Positions 4,056 to 37,754 of a DNA stretch of 64,000 bases are shown piece by piece. How positions within the stretch are numbered: the first letter of the stretch is position 1; every line of letters begins with the position of its first letter. Under the pieces are notes generated by a model. It did no database searches. It was not told the origin of the DNA and was given only the letters and a program-made list of their open reading frames with translations. This stretch comes from Candidatus Tumulicola sp. (GTDB lineage: Bacteria > Vulcanimicrobiota > Vulcanimicrobiia > Vulcanimicrobiales > Vulcanimicrobiaceae): contig DASXDT010000001.1 in NCBI GenBank assembly GCA_036490475.1, positions 62,001-126,000 of the forward strand. Direction: 5' to 3'. The translations under genes were made by a program, and so were the position numbers.

Positions 4056-7000
4056 TTACTCGGGCGGGGGTGACCCTGCAGGGCGCGGCGGACGCGGCGG
4101 CCGTACGAAGTAGAGGCCGAGTGACGGCGTGTAGTTCATCGCCGGGACGTCCTTGCCGTCGAAGTTTTTGGTCTTGAGTTCGTCGGGGGTAGTCGCAGCG
4201 ACGCGCCCGCACTGCACGATCGCACCGAATACGGTCGGGTCGCTAGGCTGCAACTCGTACCACGTTCCGCCGGCTGCGGTATGCGCGGTGATCGTCCAGG
4301 TCGGCGCTTTGCCGTGCGAGGTAAAGTAGGCGTTCAACTCGTTGAGTGCTTGCGTCGCAAGATTCTTCGCATCGCCGGTACATGAGTCGCTCGCGCGCAC
4401 TTCGAAGGGCGTTTTGGGCGGCGTGGCCGGCAGTTTGTACACGCGGAATGATTCTTGTCCGGCTTGCTGCTGGCGAGCGACGAAGTACAAGCCGACCGCC
4501 GGCATAAAGTCGAGTTGCGGTGCGAAGAACAGCGTCGTTTGCGGCGCGTAGAGTTTGAGCGACGTTACGTCGGCGGCGCGTGCGATGTGCAATGCAAAGC
4601 AGCCGGCCAGCGCGCGCAAGCGCGTCGTACTCTTGGGCACGATCGACAACGCGTAGGTCGAGCCAAGGCCGTGATACGTTACGGATGCGTCGGGTAGGTC
4701 GGGCGCAGATAGCGTCGCGGGATACCCAGCGTTAGTCTTCGCCGCTTCGATGCGCGCAACATACGCTTTCAACTCGCCGGATAGCGCTGTGGCTTTCGAT
4801 CTGTCGTCGGAGCTGCAACGCGTCTGATCGGCGATCAGGCCGAGCGGATCGGCCGGCGGTGAGGTCGGCAACGGTGCGAAGAACGGCCGATTACCGGAAC
4901 CGCCATTGCCGCTCGGCGGACCCGCTCCCGGAGGCGGCCCTCCGCCGGGGGGTCCGCCGCCGGGACCGCCACCAAATCCGCCGCCGCCAAATCCGCCACG
5001 TCCGCCGCCGCGATTGCGTACGGGATTATACGCCGACGATGATTGCGAACTGACCGCGCCCGGCCCGAAGCGCGCGCTATAGGTGAGCGAAATCTGACTC
5101 GGCTGGATCGGCCGCGCCATTGTCGGGACCAGATAACCGGCTAACGTCGTATACGGCACGGCGTTTTTCGGCGTCGAGAAGATGCCGGCATAGGTGTTGG
5201 TAATATTGCTGGCGGCAAACGTCAGCGTTCCGAAGTTGAGCGACGCGGTCACGCCGGCGTCATAGGTTGTGTAGGCCGGCAAGTTGTTGGGATTGTTGCG
5301 GCCGGTGTACTGCGCGTCGGCCAGCCATTCGAAGATCGAGTGCGGCGCTTTGTAATCGAGAACGACGCCCGCGCGTTGCATCGGTTGATTCGGCAGCTGC
5401 AAGCCCGACAACACGATCGAATACGGATTGTTGAGATACGGCGAGTTGGAGAATGCTTGCGACTGAATAAGATTGTAGAACGGCTGCACGACCAAACCGC
5501 CGAAGGTCGCGTAACCGGTAAGTTCGGCGCCCTGATAGATTCGCTTGATTCCCGAGATCGGCGTCGAAAAATACAGTTGCGCGGCCTGCAGCGGCGTGTT
5601 GGATTTTAAATTGCAGCCGGCCGCGGAATCGAACAGTTCCTGGGCTTGTTGCAGATACCCGACCGGTAGTAACCCTTGCTGCGCGAGCACGGTGCCGTTG
5701 ACATCGACCGGCAGCAACACGCCGGCTTGGATTTGCCGGTAGAGTTGCACCGAGACGTTGCCGCCCTTAAACGTTCGCGTGTAGCCGGCGCGATACGAAA
5801 TGGAAGAACTCGGGCCGGGATTGTCGCCCGGCGCCTGTCCGTAGGCGGTGTCTTGAGCCGGCGTGCCCGCGCACGTAAAGCGTAGCGAGGCCGGATCGCT
5901 CAGGATTTGCGAACGGCCCATCGTGGCCGCGACACCACCCAACGAATACGAAGCGTTGTACGTATCGACGGTCGTCGGCCTCCACGTCGCCGCTATGCTG
6001 CCCAACGCGGTGACGCCGCCCGAACCCGTGCCCGTGCTCAATCCGAGGGAATCCGAAAGCGTGAGTTTGTCGCTGGAATGGATCGTGTCGGTAGCGCTGA
6101 GAGCGTCGTAGCTCGTGTTAAACCCGCCGAAATAATACTGCGCAGACTGCTCGATCAACGGCGTGGTGACGTTCTGCGAGGTCGAACCGTAGGCTTGGAT
6201 CGAGATGGTGTGGCGCTGTTGGGCCGGCAGCGTCGCGCTAACCGAAAAGCCTTTGGTACTCATCAGGGTGTCGAACGCGTTCGGCTGATTGTCGGGAATC
6301 GGATACGGTCCGGTCGAGATATCGACGTAGCGTTCGAGTTCGTCGAGCGACATTTTCGAAACGGTCGAATACAGCGTTCCTTGCAGTTCGGTGGCGCCGA
6401 CCAGCGCGTTGTCGGTAAGCGCATACAGCTGCGTGCTGCTATCGCTGCTATTGTTGGGGCCGTAGCCGCACGGCAGTGCGGGCGGCGCACCTTCGCGCAA
6501 ACAGACGATGTTGGTGTCCCGCGTCGAATTGAGGAACGTTCCGGTGATCGACTGCGAATCGCCGAACTCGTAACGCGCTTTGAAGAGATTGCCCGAGACT
6601 TCACTGTCGCCGTCGTGGTTGTATTCGAGCCCGCTGCCGTCGAGATAATACTCCCCGTCGATTAGAGACGGCGTCTCGCGATACACGGTCTGCGCCGCGA
6701 CGCCGAGTTTCCCGACCGAACCGCTCTCTGCGAACGAATAGTTGTATTTACCGTAACTTCCGGCCGAGAAGCTCGCCTGCGACATCCAACTGAGCGTCGG
6801 CTGCAGCGTGCTAAAGTTGACCGAGCCGCCCAGCCCCCCGAGCGTCGCACCTTGGCGGACCGACGCTCCCGAAAACAAGTCGGTCGCGAACGCGCCGAGG
6901 TTGCCGGCAGTGCCGGGCGCATTGAGCGGAATGCCATCGAGCGTGAGCGCGGTTTGACTCGCGTCGTGACCTTCGAGGGAGACGGTCTGCGTTGCGTCAC

Positions 7001-7490
7001 TATCGTCGCTGCTGGTGGTAACGCTGACGCCAGAGAGTTTGTTCAGCGCGCCGGCCAGATCGTCGGAGAGGCGGCGCTGCGCCGAGTTTTGATCGATCGA
7101 CGTCGATGAAATGACGACCGATGCTTTTACCTGGACGGTTCCGATAACTTTGAGATTGCCGGTGTCCCCTTCGAGCGCCATCGTCACGGTGACCACTCGG
7201 CCGTCGAGGACTTCAAACGACTCCGACGTCAGGCTATGGTAGCCGCGTTTGACGATGCGTGCGCGATAGATGCCGTCGGGAACTTCGGTGAAGATGACCT
7301 TGCCGTTGGTGCCGGTCAACTCAGACGTGATGACCGCGCCATCGAGAAGCACGCGCGCCAACCCGACCGGCTGCTTGGTTTGCGCGTCGGTAACGACGAT
7401 CGAAATCTGGCCCGAATCGGACTGTGCGATCGCCGGAAGACCGGCTAAGGCGAGGCATGCGGCAAAGGCCGCGGCGATTATTCGACGCAT
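4056..7490 (-). CDS. TonB-dependent receptor with an extra C-terminal repeat domain
   Basis: A 1144-residue outer-membrane receptor. It has a signal peptide (1-22), a carboxypeptidase-regulatory-like beta-sandwich (about 24-115), a plug domain (about 130-240, with LNKLSGVSV and LDGIPLNAPG motifs) and a beta-barrel to about residue 807, where LTYSARF looks like the usual terminal beta-signal. The protein does not end there: a Gly/Pro-rich linker (about 815-865) leads to about 275 more residues holding two related units (about 883-1010 and 1035-1140), each with paired cysteines and ending in a GLYFV motif. Such receptors import large substrates using TonB energy. Substrate unknown. It stands alone on its strand. 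Confidence 0.85.
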   Translation of the reverse strand: MRRIIAAAFAACLALAGLPAIAQSDSGQISIVVTDAQTKQPVGLARVLLDGAVITSELTGTNGKVIFTEVPDGIYRARIVKRGYHSLTSESFEVLDGRVVTVTMALEGDTGNLKVIGTVQVKASVVISSTSIDQNSAQRRLSDDLAGALNKLSGVSVTTSSDDSDATQTVSLEGHDASQTALTLDGIPLNAPGTAGNLGAFATDLFSGASVRQGATLGGLGGSVNFSTLQPTLSWMSQASFSAGSYGKYNYSFAESGSVGKLGVAAQTVYRETPSLIDGEYYLDGSGLEYNHDGDSEVSGNLFKARYEFGDSQSITGTFLNSTRDTNIVCLREGAPPALPCGYGPNNSSDSSTQLYALTDNALVGATELQGTLYSTVSKMSLDELERYVDISTGPYPIPDNQPNAFDTLMSTKGFSVSATLPAQQRHTISIQAYGSTSQNVTTPLIEQSAQYYFGGFNTSYDALSATDTIHSSDKLTLSDSLGLSTGTGSGGVTALGSIAATWRPTTVDTYNASYSLGGVAATMGRSQILSDPASLRFTCAGTPAQDTAYGQAPGDNPGPSSSISYRAGYTRTFKGGNVSVQLYRQIQAGVLLPVDVNGTVLAQQGLLPVGYLQQAQELFDSAAGCNLKSNTPLQAAQLYFSTPISGIKRIYQGAELTGYATFGGLVVQPFYNLIQSQAFSNSPYLNNPYSIVLSGLQLPNQPMQRAGVVLDYKAPHSIFEWLADAQYTGRNNPNNLPAYTTYDAGVTASLNFGTLTFAASNITNTYAGIFSTPKNAVPYTTLAGYLVPTMARPIQPSQISLTYSARFGPGAVSSQSSSAYNPVRNRGGGRGGFGGGGFGGGPGGGPPGGGPPPGAGPPSGNGGSGNRPFFAPLPTSPPADPLGLIADQTRCSSDDRSKATALSGELKAYVARIEAAKTNAGYPATLSAPDLPDASVTYHGLGSTYALSIVPKSTTRLRALAGCFALHIARAADVTSLKLYAPQTTLFFAPQLDFMPAVGLYFVARQQQAGQESFRVYKLPATPPKTPFEVRASDSCTGDAKNLATQALNELNAYFTSHGKAPTWTITAHTAAGGTWYELQPSDPTVFGAIVQCGRVAATTPDELKTKNFDGKDVPAMNYTPSLGLYFVRPPRPPRPAGSPPPE

Positions 7491-7538
7491 CGTGGCGCGC
7501 CGATTGTAAACGACGCTACCTGAACTCAGCCTGGGAAG

Positions 7539-8084
7539 TCAGCCGCTCGCCGCGCGGCGGCGAGCGTCGCGAACGATCGCCGCGCGGCGGCGAGCGTCGC
7601 GAACGATCGCCGCGCTCGTCATCCATAAAAAGAACGCCGAGCAGGCGCCGACGACGAATTGGCTCGCGGCATCGCTCCATCCGGCGAGTTCGATCGCCGC
7701 CCCCGCCGCGGCGACGCAGACCAACGCGATGCCGGCGAAGTAGTACGGCTTGTACGGCAGATATCGCGCGATCGGCAGAAAGTGCAACCCGACGATTGCC
7801 GCGACGACCGGAGCGGCCCAATGCATCTGCTGCGACGGCGGGATGAGGAAGACAGCGACGATGATGGCCAGCGCTTCGACTCCGGAAGCGATCCCGATGA
7901 CGCGCGCGCGGTGGCGCCGCCCGACGGTCGACGACGCGTCGTATTTCGGGACTCCCAGGAATAGCGAGATCGAGATGAGGACGGCCACCGCGTAGGGCAG
8001 CCAGAGGTGCGAGCCGGTGGCGTGCAGGGCGAATGCGAACCAGAGGGTCGCGAAGACGCAGAGCGTTGCGACGGCAGCACGCAC
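7539..8084 (-). CDS. Small integral membrane protein, unknown
   Basis: A 181-residue protein with about five hydrophobic helices and no recognised family. The GTG at 8084 is the predicted start. Its last 27 residues contain a duplicated decapeptide, AAIVRDARRR, created by a perfect 30-bp tandem repeat in the DNA, so the basic cytoplasmic tail has recently been lengthened by repeat expansion. It is divergent from the small Cys-rich gene at 8130, with 45 bp between the starts. Confidence 0.55.
   Translation of the reverse strand: MRAAVATLCVFATLWFAFALHATGSHLWLPYAVAVLISISLFLGVPKYDASSTVGRRHRARVIGIASGVEALAIIVAVFLIPPSQQMHWAAPVVAAIVGLHFLPIARYLPYKPYYFAGIALVCVAAAGAAIELAGWSDAASQFVVGACSAFFLWMTSAAIVRDARRRAAIVRDARRRAASG
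7548..7607. repeat. Perfect 30-bp tandem duplication
   Basis: Two identical 30-base units (7548-7577 and 7578-7607) followed by a third copy of about the first nine bases. The unit length is a multiple of three, so the reading frame of the membrane protein that contains it is kept and ten residues are duplicated. Slippage or unequal crossover is the likely origin. It is not a CRISPR: there are no spacers. Confidence 0.9.
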
Positions 8085-8129
8085 GGCGTTTACGCCAGGC
8101 CTCGTACGCCGCTCGGCGTACTACGTCGC

Positions 8130-8300
8130 ATGAGTCAATGTCAATGCTCGGCCAACCCCTGCGGGTGGTCGGGTCACGGTGCCGGCGAGCAGTGCGACGT
8201 GGAGGTCACGATCGAGACGGTATGCGTCGATTGTGGCGGCCATAGCCACCTCGGGTTTGCCGAGGGCGTTCAGAACGTCGGGCGGGGCCGCGACCAGTAA
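8130..8300 (+). CDS. 56-residue Cys/His-rich putative metal-binding protein
   Basis: A short frame from ATG 8130 encodes 56 residues with six cysteines and three histidines: CQC near the start, then C11, C22 and a CVDCGGHSH cluster at 32-40. The spacing suggests a single zinc-binding site or small metallothionein-like fold. The opposite strand also holds an open frame of about the same size, but its sequence has no such pattern. No family recognised. It sits between a divergent membrane protein and the convergent histidine-kinase gene. Confidence 0.5.
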   Translation: MSQCQCSANPCGWSGHGAGEQCDVEVTIETVCVDCGGHSHLGFAEGVQNVGRGRDQ

Positions 8301-8315
8301 CCACAATCTCGGCGC

Positions 8316-9779
8316 TTACGCCCCGAGCCGTTTCTGCACGGGCGCTGTCGTTAGCGCGGAATACGTATCCGGCGATGCATCGAGTGTGATCGTCAGCGTG
8401 GTACCGTGGCCCGGCGCGCTGTCGATGGCGATATCGCCGCCGGCGCGTTCCACCGCGCGCTTCGCGATCGCCAATCCGAGACCGGTTCCGGTGATCTCGC
8501 CGCGCTCGTCGCCGCGATAAAAGCGTTCGAAAGCGTGCACGCGCTCGGATTCGGACATACCGGGTCCTTCATCGCGCACGCTAATGATCACGTGACCATC
8601 GTTGCGGCTCGCGCGTAGGTGGATCGGCGCTTCGGGCGCGTATTTGAGCGCGTTCTCGATGATGTTCCAGACGGCTTCGCCCAACTCGCTGGGATCGGCG
8701 TCGATCGTTTCGACGTTGTCGACCGAGTAATCGATCTGGCGGCGCTCGTCGAGCCGGTGCGCGGCCTTGACCTGCCCTTGTAAGAATGCTTTCACATCGA
8801 TGACTTCGACGCGCGGCTCGGTTTCGGAATCGAGACGTGCCAATCGCATCAAGCGATCGATCATGCTCCGCATGTGCTCTTTCTCGAGCGACATGGTAGC
8901 GAGAATTTGACGAGCGATCTTGGGTTCTTCGACGGCGCCTCGGCGCAGCACGTCGATATAGCCGCCGATCACGGTGAGCGGCGTGCGAAGTTCGTGCGAG
9001 GCGTCGGCGGCAAACTGGCGCATGCGACCCTCCGCACGCCGGCGATCGTCCATCGCACTCGCAACGCTAGCGGCGGCATCGTTGTAGGCCTCCGTTAGGG
9101 ATGCCACTTCGTCGCCGCTTTGCAGAACGAAACGTCGTTGGGTGTAATCGCCGTTGGCGAGCTGGTGCAGTGCGGTGCTGACCTCGCTGATCGGTTTGAG
9201 CGCCTGCGATGCAAACACCCGGCCGATGAACCACGAAACGAACATGGCGCCGAGCGCGATCGCCAACACGATGCGCCAATACGGATCGAGCGAAACGATC
9301 AGCAGCCACGGCGACGTCGCGAAGGCCACGTAGCCGCCATGCACCGGTGCCACTTGCATGGGATCGAATCGCGAAGTATCGGCCGGCGGACCGAGCGGCG
9401 GACCGATGAAGTGCGGCGAGTGGACCGGATGGGGAATGAAATGTTCGAAACCGCCCAGCGACAGGATCCGGTCGAGCACCTTGGGACGAAGGGTTTTATC
9501 ACCCGCGAGATAGCTGCCCTTATTATCGTAGACGGTGACTCGCATACCGATGCCTTGCAGGGCGGCAACAACCTCCGGAGCACCTTGCGCGAGCGTCAGG
9601 CCTTCGCGATGATAGCGATCGGCCATGATGCGCGCCTCTTCGTGCTTGGCGATCACGATGTCTTGGGAGAATGCGCCGAGTTCGACGACCAGCGCGATCG
9701 ACGAGGCAACGATGACGAGCAGCACCGTCACGCCCAACAGCGCCGCGTAGAGCGCCGAGAGGCGGGACGCAACCTTCAT
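8316..9779 (-). CDS. Sensor histidine kinase (HAMP, HisKA, HATPase)
   Basis: A 487-residue inner-membrane kinase. Two transmembrane helices (about 8-32 and 165-185) flank a periplasmic sensor region with a Pro/His-rich segment. They are followed by a HAMP linker, a HisKA dimerisation helix with the phospho-acceptor in SHELRTPL (near residue 261), and a HATPase domain with N-box NIIENALKYA, G1 DEGPGM and G2 GTGLGLAI motifs. Its partner is the response regulator just upstream in the same operon (six-base gap). The signal is unknown; the HPHPVHSPH region between residues 115 and 125 could bind metal, which is inference only. Confidence 0.92.
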   Translation of the reverse strand: MKVASRLSALYAALLGVTVLLVIVASSIALVVELGAFSQDIVIAKHEEARIMADRYHREGLTLAQGAPEVVAALQGIGMRVTVYDNKGSYLAGDKTLRPKVLDRILSLGGFEHFIPHPVHSPHFIGPPLGPPADTSRFDPMQVAPVHGGYVAFATSPWLLIVSLDPYWRIVLAIALGAMFVSWFIGRVFASQALKPISEVSTALHQLANGDYTQRRFVLQSGDEVASLTEAYNDAAASVASAMDDRRRAEGRMRQFAADASHELRTPLTVIGGYIDVLRRGAVEEPKIARQILATMSLEKEHMRSMIDRLMRLARLDSETEPRVEVIDVKAFLQGQVKAAHRLDERRQIDYSVDNVETIDADPSELGEAVWNIIENALKYAPEAPIHLRASRNDGHVIISVRDEGPGMSESERVHAFERFYRGDERGEITGTGLGLAIAKRAVERAGGDIAIDSAPGHGTTLTITLDASPDTYSALTTAPVQKRLGA

Positions 9780-9785
9780 GCCGAT

Positions 9786-10472
9786 TTATTGGCTAAGGCC
9801 GTATCCAACCCCGCGAACCGTGCGGATGAACGATCCCTGCTCGCCCGGCCGGTCGATCTTGGCCCGGAGATACGAGATGTAGGTCTCGACGATGTTCGGG
9901 CCGCCTTCAAAATCGTGACCCCAGACGATTTCGAGCAAGTGGTCCTTGCTGAACACTCGGCGCGGCTCGCGTAGAAAAACTTCAAGCAAATCGAACTCGC
10001 GCTGGGTGAACTCGAGCACGTCCTTGCCGCGCCAGGCTTCGCGCGTATCCGGATTGATCGACACGTCGTGCCAACGCAGCACGTTCTCTTCGATCAGTTG
10101 TGGGCGCCGCAGTTTGGCGTGCAAGCGCGCGATCAGTTCTTCGAAAACGAACGGTTTGACGAGATAATCGTCGGCGCCGGACGCGAGCGATCGCACTTTA
10201 TCGTCGGTGCCGCCTTTGGCCGTGAGCATAAGGATCGGCGCCTGCGTAATCTCGCGCAAGCGCGGCAGCAGCGTGATACCGTCGATCTTGGGCATCATGA
10301 TGTCGAGCACGATCACTTCCGGATCGAACGACTTGACCAGTTCCAACGCGCCGAAGCCGTCGGTCGCGGTCCGAACCTCGTAGCCCTCGCGGGAGAGGCC
10401 CAATTCGAGCATTTCACGGACCATGCGATCGTCATCGATGACGGCAACGCGGGAGTTCGGCATAGTTTGCAT
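9786..10472 (-). CDS. OmpR/PhoB-family response regulator
   Basis: A 228-residue regulator with a receiver domain (acidic DDD near residue 14, phospho-acceptor in VLDIMMP, switch lysine in LVKPF) and a C-terminal winged-helix DNA-binding domain ending in IRTVRGVGYGL. First gene of the operon with the kinase. ATG 10472 is used; an internal ATG nine bases later is possible. A GGTAGGGG about 18 bases upstream of the first ATG is a weak ribosome binding site. Target genes unknown. Confidence 0.92.
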   Translation of the reverse strand: MQTMPNSRVAVIDDDRMVREMLELGLSREGYEVRTATDGFGALELVKSFDPEVIVLDIMMPKIDGITLLPRLREITQAPILMLTAKGGTDDKVRSLASGADDYLVKPFVFEELIARLHAKLRRPQLIEENVLRWHDVSINPDTREAWRGKDVLEFTQREFDLLEVFLREPRRVFSKDHLLEIVWGHDFEGGPNIVETYISYLRAKIDRPGEQGSFIRTVRGVGYGLSQ

Positions 10473-10523
10473 GTGTACGGTGCATCGTGGGCCCCTACCC
10501 TTGGAAGGGCCTGAACCTAGACG

Positions 10524-10979
10524 TTAAGCGGCCCGTAACGTCGTAGGCCAATGCGAGAAGCGCTGCCCGGAAATCAAGGCGGCCTGGCGGATCGATTCGA
10601 CCGGATGGCAGACGACCTCGACACCGGCAGCCTGAAGCACGGCGTCCATCGCGGCGTCGGGAAGCCAGCGAGCGAACAAATGCACCCGGCCCGAGCCGGT
10701 GGCCCGAGCCAACTCGACCATAACGTCGGCCGCGGAACACTCGCGACGCGCCAGGAGCGGCCGGACGATCTCGGCTTCGAACCGGGAACCGGACCAGCCG
10801 GCCGCTACGATGACGATGCGCGACAGCTCATCGGGGACGGACGCCTCGAAGTCGATCACCGCCGCGCCGACGTTGGCGGCCAGATGCGGTTCCGTCTGGG
10901 CATGGAGGGCTGCCCGGGTGATGGACGACTCCGGACCGGCTGCGAGAACGGCTCCGGCTCCAATGAGATATTCGCTCAT
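10524..10979 (-). CDS. Hypothetical cytosolic protein
   Basis: A 151-residue protein from ATG 10979. The first residues (MSEYLIGAGAVLAAGP) are followed by an alternating hydrophobic pattern such as RIVIVAAGWSGSRFEAEIV and VHLFARWLPDAAMDAVL, which suggests an alpha/beta fold, but I recognise no family. The frame stays open upstream to 11267, but that extension is Arg/Gly/Pro-rich and looks non-coding. The 235 bp between this start and the LuxR-type gene hold nothing I can name. Confidence 0.5.
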   Translation of the reverse strand: MSEYLIGAGAVLAAGPESSITRAALHAQTEPHLAANVGAAVIDFEASVPDELSRIVIVAAGWSGSRFEAEIVRPLLARRECSAADVMVELARATGSGRVHLFARWLPDAAMDAVLQAAGVEVVCHPVESIRQAALISGQRFSHWPTTLRAA

Positions 10980-29917: not shown

Positions 29918-30853
29918 ATGTGGCGATTCGTTATTCTCTGGTGTTCCGGCGCGATGCTGCTAAGCGCTTGCGCGGGCTTTCACTCGCCGCCAGGTGCCCA
30001 ATTGCCGGCCGTTCGCCCGAACGCGCTTTCGGATGCAAAACAACAGGATTTGGTTTATGCATCCGACGAGCAAGGCATAACGGTGTACGTATTTTCCTAC
30101 GCCACTGGCCAACTGCTTGGAGAACTCAATAACTTTCGATATCCAACGGGCGAGTGCGTCGACCCGGCGGGCAATGTTTTCATCACGAATCAGATTCCGC
30201 CGGAGATCCTCGAGTACGCGCACGGTGGAGCTGTGCCGATCCAGACATTAAGCGATCCGTACCTACCGAACGGTTGCGCGGTCGATCCCAGAACGGGCAA
30301 CCTCGCAGTGGCGAACTTCAACGGGAACGTTGCTCTCTATGCTCGGGCGAAAGGCTCGCCACTGATCTACGCAGATTCAGATTTTACATCTTTTCATTTC
30401 TGCGCGTACGATTCGAGCGGCAACCTGTTCGTTACCGACGGCGGTTCTGCGCGATTAGCAGAGCTCGAAGCTAGCGCTAGATCGCTTCGGACGATTCCGA
30501 TCGATGGGACGCTGGCTGCCGACAGCATTGCGTGGGACGGCCGGCGTTTTGTCATCGCGAACAAAGAGTACGACCAGAAGCCAACACATCTCGCCATTGT
30601 GAAAATTGTTGCTAAAAATGCGAAGATCGTCGGCTCGGTTGCGCTTCGCAACTACGTGCTCGGACCGTTCTTCGGGCAGTTCTTTCTCGACGGCAAGTTC
30701 GTCATTGGACCGACAGCCGGACCCCAGGGGAACGCACAAAACCTCCGATCGTGGGCCTTCCCGCGTGGCGGCAATCCTATCAAAGCATTTCGGACCGGCG
30801 GCGACATCTATGTGACACTCTACGGCGTTGTAGTAAGCAAAGCGCACCCGTAG
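29918..30853 (+). CDS. Beta-propeller (NHL/SMP-30-like) lipoprotein
   Basis: A 311-residue lipoprotein (lipobox LLSAC, cysteine near residue 18) followed by a beta-propeller. Repeated blade motifs include YPTGECVDPAGNVFITN, PNGCAVDPRTGNLAV and YDSSGNLFVTD. It is a clear paralogue of the lipoprotein at 36810, which has near-identical TGECVD and NGCAVDP blades. NHL-type propellers bind proteins, sugars or lactones; the ligand here is unknown. It is probably co-transcribed with the serine hydrolase upstream. Confidence 0.75.
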   Translation: MWRFVILWCSGAMLLSACAGFHSPPGAQLPAVRPNALSDAKQQDLVYASDEQGITVYVFSYATGQLLGELNNFRYPTGECVDPAGNVFITNQIPPEILEYAHGGAVPIQTLSDPYLPNGCAVDPRTGNLAVANFNGNVALYARAKGSPLIYADSDFTSFHFCAYDSSGNLFVTDGGSARLAELEASARSLRTIPIDGTLAADSIAWDGRRFVIANKEYDQKPTHLAIVKIVAKNAKIVGSVALRNYVLGPFFGQFFLDGKFVIGPTAGPQGNAQNLRSWAFPRGGNPIKAFRTGGDIYVTLYGVVVSKAHP

Positions 30854-33205: not shown

Positions 33206-33805
33206 TTAGCTCCAAAACGTTTCGCCGACCCATGTTGATTCGAGTTGATTTACGCGATCCTCTGTAAGCCGAGTCTCGCACGTGCCGCCGGCCAGCGCGC
33301 ACCATGCATCTCGATACCCCAACCAGGCGCGCTGCGACGCGGCCAGCTGGGCTCGTTGCGGCGGATTCAGCCGCTCGTTATACAAGCGAACCATCCGGCT
33401 CAAACGCACCTCAGCGACCTGCGATACCGGCTGCTCGCTCACATGCGCCGTCCTTTTGGTAAATGCCGATAGTTCCGCCGCGCGCGTGCGACTGGCCGTA
33501 TCGTTGCACTCGATGAATAACTGTGGGGCGATCGATCCGCCGCTATATAATTGATATTGAAACGAACACGTCTTGGCACGCACCGCCAGCCACGCGGCTT
33601 GGGAAGCTTCGAGCTCGCTTGTTTGACGGGGTGATGATTTGAGGTAGGCGATAGCCTCCGAGTAGGTCGTCTTCAATTCGGCCGACGCCGCTGCATTTCG
33701 CTTCGACCAGCACACTTGCATATCGATCGTCGTGCCGTTGCTGCACGGGCTCGCCGCGCCGACGGCGGCCATGAGTATCGCCGCCAGCGCGAGCGGTTTG
33801 ATCAC
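33206..33805 (-). CDS. LprI/DUF1311-type secreted protein with two domains
   Basis: A 199-residue secreted protein (signal peptide 1-20) with two copies of the lysozyme-inhibitor LprI-like pattern: QVCWSKRNAAASAELKTTYSEAI...LEASQAAWLAVRAKTC and a second RLYNERLNPPQRAQLAASQRAWLGYRDAWCALAGGT. The family's conserved Q/AxxAWxxYRxxxC is seen in both. Some DUF1311 proteins inhibit lysozyme; that role is possible, not shown. The GTG start overlaps the TGA of the upstream propeller gene (GTGA), so the two are translationally coupled. Confidence 0.75.
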   Translation of the reverse strand: MIKPLALAAILMAAVGAASPCSNGTTIDMQVCWSKRNAAASAELKTTYSEAIAYLKSSPRQTSELEASQAAWLAVRAKTCSFQYQLYSGGSIAPQLFIECNDTASRTRAAELSAFTKRTAHVSEQPVSQVAEVRLSRMVRLYNERLNPPQRAQLAASQRAWLGYRDAWCALAGGTCETRLTEDRVNQLESTWVGETFWS

Positions 33806-34863
33806 TTCCCGACTACGAGATCGATCGGATACGCTCTGGAACTGTAAGACATTGTCTGGATGAGGTTCGTGCTGTTGGCGGCATAGACCGTGACGTCACC
33901 GGTATACTGATTGATACTCATATTGCCGACGTACAGCTTTCCGGCGCTATCGAGTGCTAGGCTGCGCGGATTGCCCACTCCGTCCGTGATCGTCCGAAGT
34001 AGGTTCAAACTGCCTGGAGAATAGACCGTCACACTGCCGGCGTACGTTCCAGCCATGTAGTTCGCGACATATAGATTACCGCCGCTATCGAACGCAAACG
34101 CGATCGGATTGCATATTCCGTCAGCGGGAGTTATCGTCTGAATCGGCGTCGAGCCATTCGGGGCGTAGACCGATACAGAGCCCCCATTGGAACTCTTACC
34201 GCACGTGCCAGTGGTAAAGACGTTTGCCACGTACAAGTTTCCAGCGCTATCGAAGGTAAGAGCTACCGGGGAATCGACGCCTTGCGATATCGTTCGAAAT
34301 GGTGTCGTCGAGCCCTCGGCATATACGCTGATGGGATGCTCGTTTGACGCAACGTACAGATTGTTTTGCGGATCTAACGCAATAGCTTGGACAAACTTTA
34401 CTCGGATGCGCTTAATTCGGCGTTCCTTGCCTCCTAGGAAAATTGCCACGCCGTTCTTATCCGCCACGTACAGATTCCCGTCGGCGTCGAAAGCCACGAG
34501 TTGGGGCGAGTGTAGTTTTTTCGAGATCGTCTCAACTAATTTCTTTCCGCCGTTGGCGTAAACAAGCACGCTCGAGATTCCCGCAATATAAAGCCGCCCG
34601 GCTGCATCGAAGGCCATCCCGGTGGACTGCTCGCCTATAGCGCGCACGAGCTTACGTGGCGAGCCTCTATATACGGCAACCACCGCGGGCCCGCTTTCCT
34701 CTGAAACGTACAGCGAGTCGCCCTTGGGAGCCTTCGGTCCGAGCTTCGAGGAAGGGCCGCTTTGAGCGATCGCAGCCGGCTGGACGGAGTTTGACGAGCC
34801 GGAACATCCGGCAAACAATAGCGCAAAAGATGCGACTGCTGTCGCGGCATATGGTCGAGGCAA
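33802..34863 (-). CDS. NHL-type propeller lipoprotein
   Basis: A 353-residue predicted lipoprotein (lipobox LFAGC) carrying a six-bladed NHL-like propeller; repeats such as PVALTFDSAGNLYVAN, PIAFAFDSGGNLYVAN and PRSLALDSAGKLYVGN recur about every 45 residues, each flanked by a SVSVY or DVTVY strand. The start is TTG 34863, because AAAAGGGGAC lies just upstream; the longer frame would run into the neighbouring gene. It is downstream of the nuclease-fusion gene by 17 bp and may be read from the same transcript, though a functional link is doubtful. Confidence 0.75.
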   Translation of the reverse strand: MPRPYAATAVASFALLFAGCSGSSNSVQPAAIAQSGPSSKLGPKAPKGDSLYVSEESGPAVVAVYRGSPRKLVRAIGEQSTGMAFDAAGRLYIAGISSVLVYANGGKKLVETISKKLHSPQLVAFDADGNLYVADKNGVAIFLGGKERRIKRIRVKFVQAIALDPQNNLYVASNEHPISVYAEGSTTPFRTISQGVDSPVALTFDSAGNLYVANVFTTGTCGKSSNGGSVSVYAPNGSTPIQTITPADGICNPIAFAFDSGGNLYVANYMAGTYAGSVTVYSPGSLNLLRTITDGVGNPRSLALDSAGKLYVGNMSINQYTGDVTVYAANSTNLIQTMSYSSRAYPIDLVVGK

Positions 34864-34880
34864 TTCGAGTCCCCTTTTCT

Positions 34881-36695
34881 TTATTCTGGGCGGACGATGA
34901 CGATCGACGAGCACTCTTCGTCGGCCCACACGGCGCGCCCGTCGGTCGCGCTGGTCAGCACTTCGAACGCGCGCACGATGTCGGCACGCATACAGGCTAA
35001 CATGCTGCCGTCGTCGTCGAGCGCGAGGTCGACCATGTCGTGTGCGGCGTCGAGCGTCAGCCGCTCACCCAAATTGGTATGTTTTGCGGCGACAACTTGC
35101 GTCTTCCAGCCCGTTTGCACGATCAGGTGCGCGATGGTCGAGATGCGCTTGGCGGCTCCATGACGCCGTTGCCACAGCACGTCGGCGATGCGATCGCTAC
35201 AGTAACCGGGCGAGAGCAGCGATTCTATCTCGAGCGCCGTTGCATCGAGTTCTAGCAGCGTTTGCAGATCGGCCACGGCGAACGCCGTGACGCGGTGGTT
35301 TTGCAACTCATCGAGTAGTTCGAGCTCGGACGAAAACTCCGGTCCGGCCAATACGCTGTATTGCGCCGCATATTCGTCACGAAACTTAGCGGCTTCTTCG
35401 GGCGCTTGCGTTTGGTTCACGGGATGCTTAGATGTCTTACATTCGATGATTATGCGATACCCGAGCGAGCCGAGGATCGCGTCAGCAATGCCATCGGGCG
35501 CGCCACCTCCGCCGCAGTGTTTCGTTAAGAAGCCTAGCTGCGCGAACGCGTCGCATACGGCGATTTCGAAAGCCAACGGGTCGTCCCCCGATCCCGTCTT
35601 CTCGAGCCGGTCCATCAACGCACGCACTTGGGCTTCGTCGCGCGGCACCGGTTCGATATCGGGCCAATCGTCGGCCGGTTCGTTGATGCGGAATCGCCGC
35701 TGTTCGTCCTGCAGAAACGGCGCCCGCCGCTGGTGCGCCACCTGGCGCGCGATATATTCGGTGAGCGCCGTATAGACGTATTTGCGCTTGGTGTCGGCGG
35801 TCAGCAACGCGAGTTGCAAGGCTTCGTGCAGAATCTCGCCGGCCGTACGGGCTTTCCCATCGGAAAGAATCTCGATCGCGGCCTTGATCACGTGGCCGTG
35901 CGGGGCCGGTGTATTGCTCATCGTTATGGGCGCACTGTCGAGCCGCTGGTTGGGCATCTGCTCGACCTGCGTCGCAAACACATCGCCGACGTCGTGCAGC
36001 CGGGCGGGCATGTCGCGATCGGTAAATGCGCCGGCGGATGCCAGCGACTCGAGTTCGTTCCAGCGCACGGGCGTGCAGACGGTGAGGTCGGGCGGACGCA
36101 AACTATAGGGTGCAGCACTGTAGCGGCGCGCGGCGTTGCTGGAGACGTGGACGTGCACTCGGCCGTCGGCGTGCGTGTTGGCCTCGCCCGAAATCAACTC
36201 CGGATGGCGGGCGATGGCTTCTCCGCACAGTTCGTGCAGGCGCGCCCGCAGCGGCGCGGCATGGGGTGCATCCGCGAGCGGGATCCACAAGGCGATGCCG
36301 TTGCCGCCGTCGATCAACGGCACGCACTTCCACCCGGCTTTCTCGAGCAGCACGTCGCGCACGACGGCTGCGGCACGTTTGACCCGATCGAACCCGGTGC
36401 CGGCTCCCTCGAGCAGCACCCGGCCGAAGCGCAAGCGTTCGTCGTCTTCTGGGAGCGGAGCCCAGGTAAAGAACGACATCGCGTATTTAGCGTGGATGAG
36501 CCACAACAATTTGGTGTGTGTCAGCGGTACCTGCGTGACGTGATAGACCGCCGGCTTATCCAGTCCGTCGGGGTAGTTGGAATACACGATCGGCGAGTTC
36601 GCTAAACTCGCTTCCATGAGTGGGCCGACGAGCCCGTAATGCGCCAATACTCGCGGTTGAAGCGACGTATCGCTTCTCGCGGGCGAGGTCTTCAT
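34881..36695 (-). CDS. Catalytically dead LigD-polymerase-like domain fused to HARE-HTH and PD-(D/E)xK nuclease
   Basis: A 604-residue fusion. Residues 30-245 follow the LigD primase-polymerase (AEP) domain: YPDGLDKP (41-48), LLWLIHAKY, GFDRVKRAAAVVRDVL, APYSLR (195-200), TPVRWNELESL and PARLHDVGDVFA. The catalytic residues are gone: the DLDPG aspartates are V93 and L95, the SGGKGLH motif is DGGNGIA (129-135) and the third acidic site is H183. Residues 265-338 resemble a HARE-HTH helical module. Residues 370-485 look like a restriction-endonuclease fold with APDGIAD (D401) and IIIECK (E418, K420), active site apparently intact. The last 100 residues are unassigned. No ligase or Ku gene is nearby. 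Confidence 0.75.
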   Translation of the reverse strand: MKTSPARSDTSLQPRVLAHYGLVGPLMEASLANSPIVYSNYPDGLDKPAVYHVTQVPLTHTKLLWLIHAKYAMSFFTWAPLPEDDERLRFGRVLLEGAGTGFDRVKRAAAVVRDVLLEKAGWKCVPLIDGGNGIALWIPLADAPHAAPLRARLHELCGEAIARHPELISGEANTHADGRVHVHVSSNAARRYSAAPYSLRPPDLTVCTPVRWNELESLASAGAFTDRDMPARLHDVGDVFATQVEQMPNQRLDSAPITMSNTPAPHGHVIKAAIEILSDGKARTAGEILHEALQLALLTADTKRKYVYTALTEYIARQVAHQRRAPFLQDEQRRFRINEPADDWPDIEPVPRDEAQVRALMDRLEKTGSGDDPLAFEIAVCDAFAQLGFLTKHCGGGGAPDGIADAILGSLGYRIIIECKTSKHPVNQTQAPEEAAKFRDEYAAQYSVLAGPEFSSELELLDELQNHRVTAFAVADLQTLLELDATALEIESLLSPGYCSDRIADVLWQRRHGAAKRISTIAHLIVQTGWKTQVVAAKHTNLGERLTLDAAHDMVDLALDDDGSMLACMRADIVRAFEVLTSATDGRAVWADEECSSIVIVRPE

Positions 36696-36809: not shown

Positions 36810-37754
36810 TTAGATCCGGCTAACGACGGCCGCGAAGGGTTGGCTCGCGTGTCCGATCGCGTCGGTTTGCGCTCCACCCTCCGGATAGGCAAATATCTTG
36901 ACCGATTTGTTAACGTAGTCGGGAGCGACAACCGTGTTGCCGTCGATGTACGATTGAAACACGACGCCGGTTCCCTGCAGCACCGTCGACCCGATGACTT
37001 TCGAACCCTTCGTCTGATAGATCGTCGCGGGAGCGAGATCGCCGCCTTCATCGGCGACGGTCATATTCTTGCCGTCCCATTGTACCGAACCACCGCTGTT
37101 GATCGGCGCGTCGAGCGTGATGTCTTTGAACGTCGTCTTTCCGCGTTGCAATTCGGCGTAACGGAACTGGCCGCTGGGATTGCCGCCATCAACAAAGAGA
37201 TTGCCCTTGTTGTCATAGCCGGCACACAGCATGAAGTGAATATTCGAGTCGGAGTACACCGTGGGATCGCCCTCCGCTTTGGCGTACACAGAAACGCTGC
37301 CCGGTCCGAAGGATGTGGAGTCGTAGTTGGTGACCGCAAGATTTCCGGACTTGGGGTCGACCGCACAACCGTTCGGAGTTTGACCGGCATCTTGTAACGT
37401 GACGACGGGCGTCTTGCCGCCGTGTTCGTATTCACTGATCTGCGAGGCGCCGCCATCGACGATCCAGACGTCGCCCTTTGCGTCGACGCACTCGCCGGTC
37501 GGACTGGTAAAGCCCGTGAGACGATCGATCAATTTGCCTTTGGGATAGGAGTACACGAACACCGAAGCCGCGGCGTTGTTGGAAACGTAGAGCAAGTCGC
37601 CTTTTCGTAGGTCGGGATTGGCGGCCGCGGATCCGGCTGCCGGTGCGGCAGCAGGCATCATCGTGGACGACCCGGAGGACGAACAGGACGCCAGCAGACT
37701 TCCTAGAGTTGTGAGGCTCGCGAGCCAGGCGGTCGAGCGAATCTGTGGTAGCAA
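36810..37754 (-). CDS. Beta-propeller lipoprotein, paralogue of the one at 29918
   Basis: A 314-residue lipoprotein (lipobox LLASC, then a Ser/Ala/Pro spacer) with propeller blades SPTGECVDAKGDVWIVD, PNGCAVDPKSGNLAVTN and YDNKGNLFVDGG; the same blade sequence and order are in the lipoprotein at 29918. The start is TTG 37754 with GGAGAT seven bases upstream. A perfect TTAGGC-AA-GCCTAA palindrome lies 51 bp before it, between it and the divergent reductase gene, so both may respond to iron or manganese. Confidence 0.72.
   Translation of the reverse strand: MLPQIRSTAWLASLTTLGSLLASCSSSGSSTMMPAAAPAAGSAAANPDLRKGDLLYVSNNAAASVFVYSYPKGKLIDRLTGFTSPTGECVDAKGDVWIVDGGASQISEYEHGGKTPVVTLQDAGQTPNGCAVDPKSGNLAVTNYDSTSFGPGSVSVYAKAEGDPTVYSDSNIHFMLCAGYDNKGNLFVDGGNPSGQFRYAELQRGKTTFKDITLDAPINSGGSVQWDGKNMTVADEGGDLAPATIYQTKGSKVIGSTVLQGTGVVFQSYIDGNTVVAPDYVNKSVKIFAYPEGGAQTDAIGHASQPFAAVVSRI

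Follow-up and report, generated by a model that had tools for sequence, protein, structure and literature searches.

The type IIS restriction enzyme FokI, in which winged helices precede a PD-(D/E)xK cleavage domain, and the winged-helix fusion endonucleases of type IV restriction, in which a stand-alone winged helix is joined to a PD-(D/E)xK nuclease, usually with no methyltransferase neighbour (PMC11037411), are the described systems closest to the nuclease part of the locus studied here. Stand-alone occurrence is taken as a sign of modification-directed winged-helix nucleases, and the hallmark of HARE-HTH is an extra helix inserted within the HTH of the winged helix (PMC11037411). For the other part, the closest relative is the polymerase domain (PolDom) of LigD in NHEJ, which grips the 5'-phosphate end by Asn13, Lys16 and Lys26 and carries Arg53 and Phe64 as the wedge at the ss/ds junction (PMC3898472); the end-binding residues are also described in PMC8656161. 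Inactive, fast-evolving yet retained domains in defence proteins are regarded as invader sensors (PMC12839542).

In the window, i.e. the whole stretch of 64,000 nucleotides that was analysed, an open reading frame at 34881-36695 (minus strand) was verified as located previously, with a product of 604 amino acids, and the order of its domains was a dead PolDom, a winged helix, a FokI-type nuclease and a second winged helix. We describe the product as a predicted stand-alone restriction-type endonuclease with a putatively novel recognition module. An earlier note had listed a catalytically dead LigD-polymerase domain, a HARE-HTH-like module and a PD-(D/E)xK nuclease; the fusion of a dead polymerase domain with an intact nuclease was borne out by Pfam, fold matches and site residues, and the PolDom, middle winged helix and nuclease of that list all stand, but the winged helix after the nuclease had been overlooked. 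The AlphaFold2 model, for which 46 family sequences were used as input, gave a mean pLDDT of 90.6 and a pTM of 0.63, so that packing between domains is uncertain, and a separate model of the C-half gave a pLDDT of 91.4. Both an AEP fold and a restriction-endonuclease fold were recovered in the prediction, and the loss of either, which the note had named as contradicting it, was not seen. The same fusion was not found in the literature searched, in agreement with the note, which knew of no described system with this domain order. The order of dead PolDom and nuclease recurs in many species at 35–57% identity and both modules are under purifying selection, indicating that the architecture is no chance fusion. 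GC content of the gene was ordinary (62.7% versus 61.0% for the window), and a foreign base composition was rejected.

The N-terminal domain (residues 9-250; 35946-36671, minus strand) has a LigD-type primase-polymerase fold. PF21686 (LigD_Prim-Pol) matched residues 98-240 with an E-value of 2.1e-23 and 83.7 bits (cut-off 27.4), phmmer found the Rv0938 PolDom at 8.5e-8, and residues 4-255 of the model matched the solved NHEJ polymerases 5dmu, 2fao and 4mky with Z of 27.7, 27.5 and 26.4, respectively. The assignment of residues 30-245 to the LigD polymerase or AEP fold was thus confirmed. The fold is common to the PolDoms of M. tuberculosis (Rv0938), P. aeruginosa LigD and Methanocella NHEJ Pol (residues 4-255, Z 26–28), and the PYSLR and asparagine motifs are retained, whereas the metal site, the 5'-phosphate pocket and the ss/ds wedge residues are lost, and the domain is fused to a nuclease without ligase or Ku linkage. 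Where genuine PolDoms carry D-L-D, the protein has L94-L95-E96 (36408-36416, minus strand), i.e. the first and second Asp are replaced by L94 and E96; the third metal-binding Asp is replaced by H183 (36147-36149, minus strand), and SGxKGxH reads DGGNGIA (K to N, H to A). These are the replacements that had been claimed for the metal aspartates, the third acidic residue and the Lys and His of SGGKGLH. We then compared 38 N domains of the family with 19 genuine PolDoms of the same phylum (M. tuberculosis numbering): Asp137, Asp139 and Asp227 were all kept in 19/19 genuine domains, but in 0/38, 0/38 and 7/38 family domains, and the His of SGxKGxH was replaced in every family domain. Homologues keeping the first two polymerase aspartates, which would have spoken against the note, were therefore not seen, and, judged by the residues, none of the 38 domains has a functional polymerase site. 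In a tree, the family N domains formed one clade with no genuine PolDom within it (support 0.68).

The nuclease domain (residues 353-508; 35172-35639, minus strand) matched the PD-(D/E)xK fold of the FokI/HindIII type. HindIII aligned with residues 353-508 (Z 14, rmsd 2.5), and FokI, the best solved match of the C-half, with residues 260-503 (Foldseek E 2e-7, Z 17.4, rmsd 13), where the high rmsd probably arose because two domains were aligned together; BspD6I nicking/restriction enzymes also matched the C-half model (Z about 12). The restriction-endonuclease fold claimed for residues 370-485 thus held, as did the site D401, E418 and K420. D401 (35493-35495, minus strand) and E418 of the ExK motif E418-C419-K420 (35436-35444, minus strand) were kept in 34/34 aligned C halves, together with E377, E434 and E463, and K420 in 32/34 (exceptions: Ser in L039 and Glu in L061); by these residues the nuclease active site is intact. 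The Pfam FokI_cleav_dom (PF09254) matched 5/46 members, with a best E-value of 0.082 and no clear match in any of the 46. Mrr-type restriction endonucleases (PF04471) matched at E<=1 in 28/46 members, the best at 3e-7, and the window protein itself stayed below the curated cut-off (Mrr_cat, residues 372-429, 16.6 bits versus 21).

The middle winged helix (residues 266-340; 35676-35900, minus strand), which was located by the model and a fold match, lies ahead of the nuclease; its limits are also given as residues 264-338. In the models it is built of a wing and three helices, helices 2 and 3 being joined by a 9-residue loop, and no extra helix is seen. Of the HARE-HTH-like module that had been claimed, the winged helix stands; a HARE-HTH identity is without sequence support, as none of 46 members matched PF05066 at E<=1 and a genome search with HARE-HTH gave nothing above cut-off. 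The C-terminal winged helix (residues 514-604; 34884-35156, minus strand) is cullin-WHB-like, the match (Z 9.5) covering model residues equal to about 503-602. Compared with FokI, the family shares a winged helix followed by the cleavage domain, but the dead polymerase fold replaces the other winged helices of FokI as predicted recognition half, a C-terminal winged helix is added, the FokI_cleav_dom is matched at E 0.08 only, and a methyltransferase is not a constant partner.

The family occurs as fused genes, as N and C genes side by side with either one first, as lone N and as lone C genes, most copies being fused, and these forms suggest that N and C are parts of a single machine. For the fused copies, the tree of N and that of C are in broad agreement. 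Among the split arrangements, the order of N and C genes was reversed in L063 (7600-9632) and their orientation was opposite in L057 (1465-4162), L117 (5452-8434) and L126 (3821-5879), and in L054 (7587-10713) a single N gene was followed by two tandem C genes. N and C had dN/dS values of 0.20 and 0.09, respectively, between L041 and L042, and of 0.17–0.20 and 0.10–0.18 in the split pairs L064/L065 and L059/L060. Thus, both modules are under purifying selection, indicating that the dead domain is maintained for a function, and N changes faster than C in most comparisons, as would be expected of a recognition part. For the N-only gene of genus g18, comparisons of five species with shared surroundings gave a dN/dS of 0.22–0.36. 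This dead-polymerase gene (L067 5997-6791, L129 2963-3763, L130 4912-5691, L131 2580-3329, L072 4009-4833) mostly has no nuclease nearby, is under purifying selection and, unlike most of the family, keeps the third Asp.

No neighbour family recurred across the loci, including any constant methyltransferase or operon partner. The window copy sits among ordinary genes outside any defence island, adjoining a gene for an NHL-repeat protein, and no cognate methyltransferase is adjacent to it; elsewhere, methyltransferases were found beside single copies only, for instance a type III methyltransferase near L056. When 134 neighbours were compared with PADLOC, 295 models were matched, including AbiEii, Fic, type I and III methyltransferases and Cas genes, versus 55 when randomly drawn genes from these genomes were used (of the matches listed there, most were to generic models for helicases and reverse transcriptases). 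The difference is modest, counts models and not proteins, and hints at a defence role without proving it. L050 adjoins a type I-C CRISPR-Cas operon, the L134 fragment adjoins type I RM genes, and the fused copy L042 adjoins a 1,233-residue protein (4727-8428) matching part of Cas9 models. PADLOC itself contained no relative of the family (a single weak restriction-enzyme match, E 0.049), nor did PHROGs, and no relatives were found in phages, plasmids or viral contigs; two plasmid matches were genuine ligD genes and were rejected as family members. From mobility, patchiness and some of the neighbours, a defence role is plausible.

From folds and active sites, selection, distribution, sharing between genera and neighbours, we consider the chances about even that the family is a stand-alone FokI-like restriction-type endonuclease acting on incoming DNA, with the dead polymerase domain as its recognition half. 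The ordinary surroundings of the window copy, the modest size of the PADLOC difference and the lack of relatives in PADLOC and in phage, plasmid and viral-contig collections count against it. The N-terminal half, i.e. the dead LigD-type fold and the winged helix, would find the target as in FokI and position or release the FokI-type nuclease, which, probably after dimerisation, would cut both strands of the incoming DNA. Differing from type IIS restriction-modification, the family has no regularly encoded nearby methyltransferase; the target is therefore probably absent from host DNA rather than a methylation-protected sequence, and it would be the kind of target that spares the host's own DNA, an argument also made for stand-alone winged-helix nucleases in PMC11037411. 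Such a target may be something foreign to host DNA, either invader DNA that is modified or of unusual structure or a phage molecule which the dead domain would sense, and by analogy the N module fits the invader-sensor reading of PMC12839542. The family is like the winged-helix fusions of type IV restriction (PMC11037411) in standing alone, but the dead polymerase domain is added and a reading of modified bases is without support.

The ancestry of the N domain also raises a role as a DNA-repair nuclease or NHEJ regulator, in which the dead PolDom would compete with or recruit Ku/LigD and the nuclease would trim ends; LigD ancestry and the presence of Ku and genuine PolDoms in the same genome speak for it. 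A genuine PolDom adjoins Ku at G000:C6:980401-981916 (L180, L198) and a second one lies at G000:C5:604714-605532 (L005), indicating that the genome carries a normal NHEJ system separate from the fused gene. The fused gene lies on contig C1, outside the NHEJ operon on C6 and with no operon link to Ku or ligase, so that it is distinct from host NHEJ as the earlier note had proposed. The claim of the same note that the dead domain recognises DNA ends fared worse. Asn13, Lys16, Lys26, Arg53 and Phe64 were present in 18–19 of 19 genuine PolDoms, but in 1, 0, 1, 0 and 0 of 38 dead domains, respectively, and the window protein has a gap, T and Q at the first three positions; end recognition in the known way is thus disfavoured. 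Since the dead family is also patchy and horizontally moved (at least about 37 of 149 genomes of the phylum, probably Vulcanimicrobiota, for the C-half among the matches listed, every one of them from a single class and from three families within it), whereas genuine PolDoms are nearly universal, being found in most genomes of that class, we regard the repair role as quite improbable.

The same mobility would be shown by a selfish gene which, like a homing endonuclease, cuts chromosomes and spreads by break repair with no gain for the host. The copies of G027 and G020, from different genera, had 98.3% identity along 1,897 bp that begin 67 bp ahead of the start and end at the stop codon, while their flanks were unrelated, i.e. 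a bare gene of 1.9 kb with its edges at the ORF; matches per genome reached about ten (10 in G017, 9 in G065 and 8 in G084), and several copies were broken. Homing requires a matching site, but the flanks are unrelated; terminal inverted repeats were absent across 22 loci, where own ends matched no better than mismatched ends; and the N-only gene is vertically kept in one genus. We therefore find a selfish gene unlikely. Multiple copies, patchy distribution, N and C as separate neighbouring genes and N alone could also be features of a cell-killing nuclease of the abortive-infection or toxin-like type, in which the N module restrains the nuclease, infection frees it and lone N genes are inhibitors. 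Most copies are one fused protein, though, and lone C genes persist without a nearby N gene, making a cell-killing nuclease a slightly more doubtful proposition still.

Returning to the stand-alone restriction-type endonuclease, we propose only tentatively its wider form: a LigD-type fold, having lost catalysis and the known end-binding residues, may now serve a FokI-like nuclease as the half that recognises or senses, and one or two genes would then make up an immune system based on a new principle of sensing, so far known from one bacterial class. If true, a repair-polymerase fold would have been turned into the target finder of a restriction-type nuclease. The defined family with its fused, split and N-only members is material for finding what the dead domain binds, and new recognition modules joined to FokI-type cleavage domains are also of interest as DNA tools.

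When 84,980 species genomes were scanned with the window protein, at a depth limited to close relatives, three loci were obtained, equal to contigs of G011, G020 and G027. In the other genome of the genus only more distant genes match, so that the window copy has no definable empty site. Transposon ends were rejected as well: an inverted-repeat pair of 84% in L041/L043 was discarded after the family-wide test failed. In L041, a 530-bp stretch (10405-10934), separated by 12 bp from where the common gene ends, is identical at G027:C10:66780-67309. Around the window gene, three predicted lipoproteins are encoded (29918-30853, 33802-34929 and 36810-37754), of which 33802-34929 has NHL/beta-propeller repeats and the other two look similar by eye.
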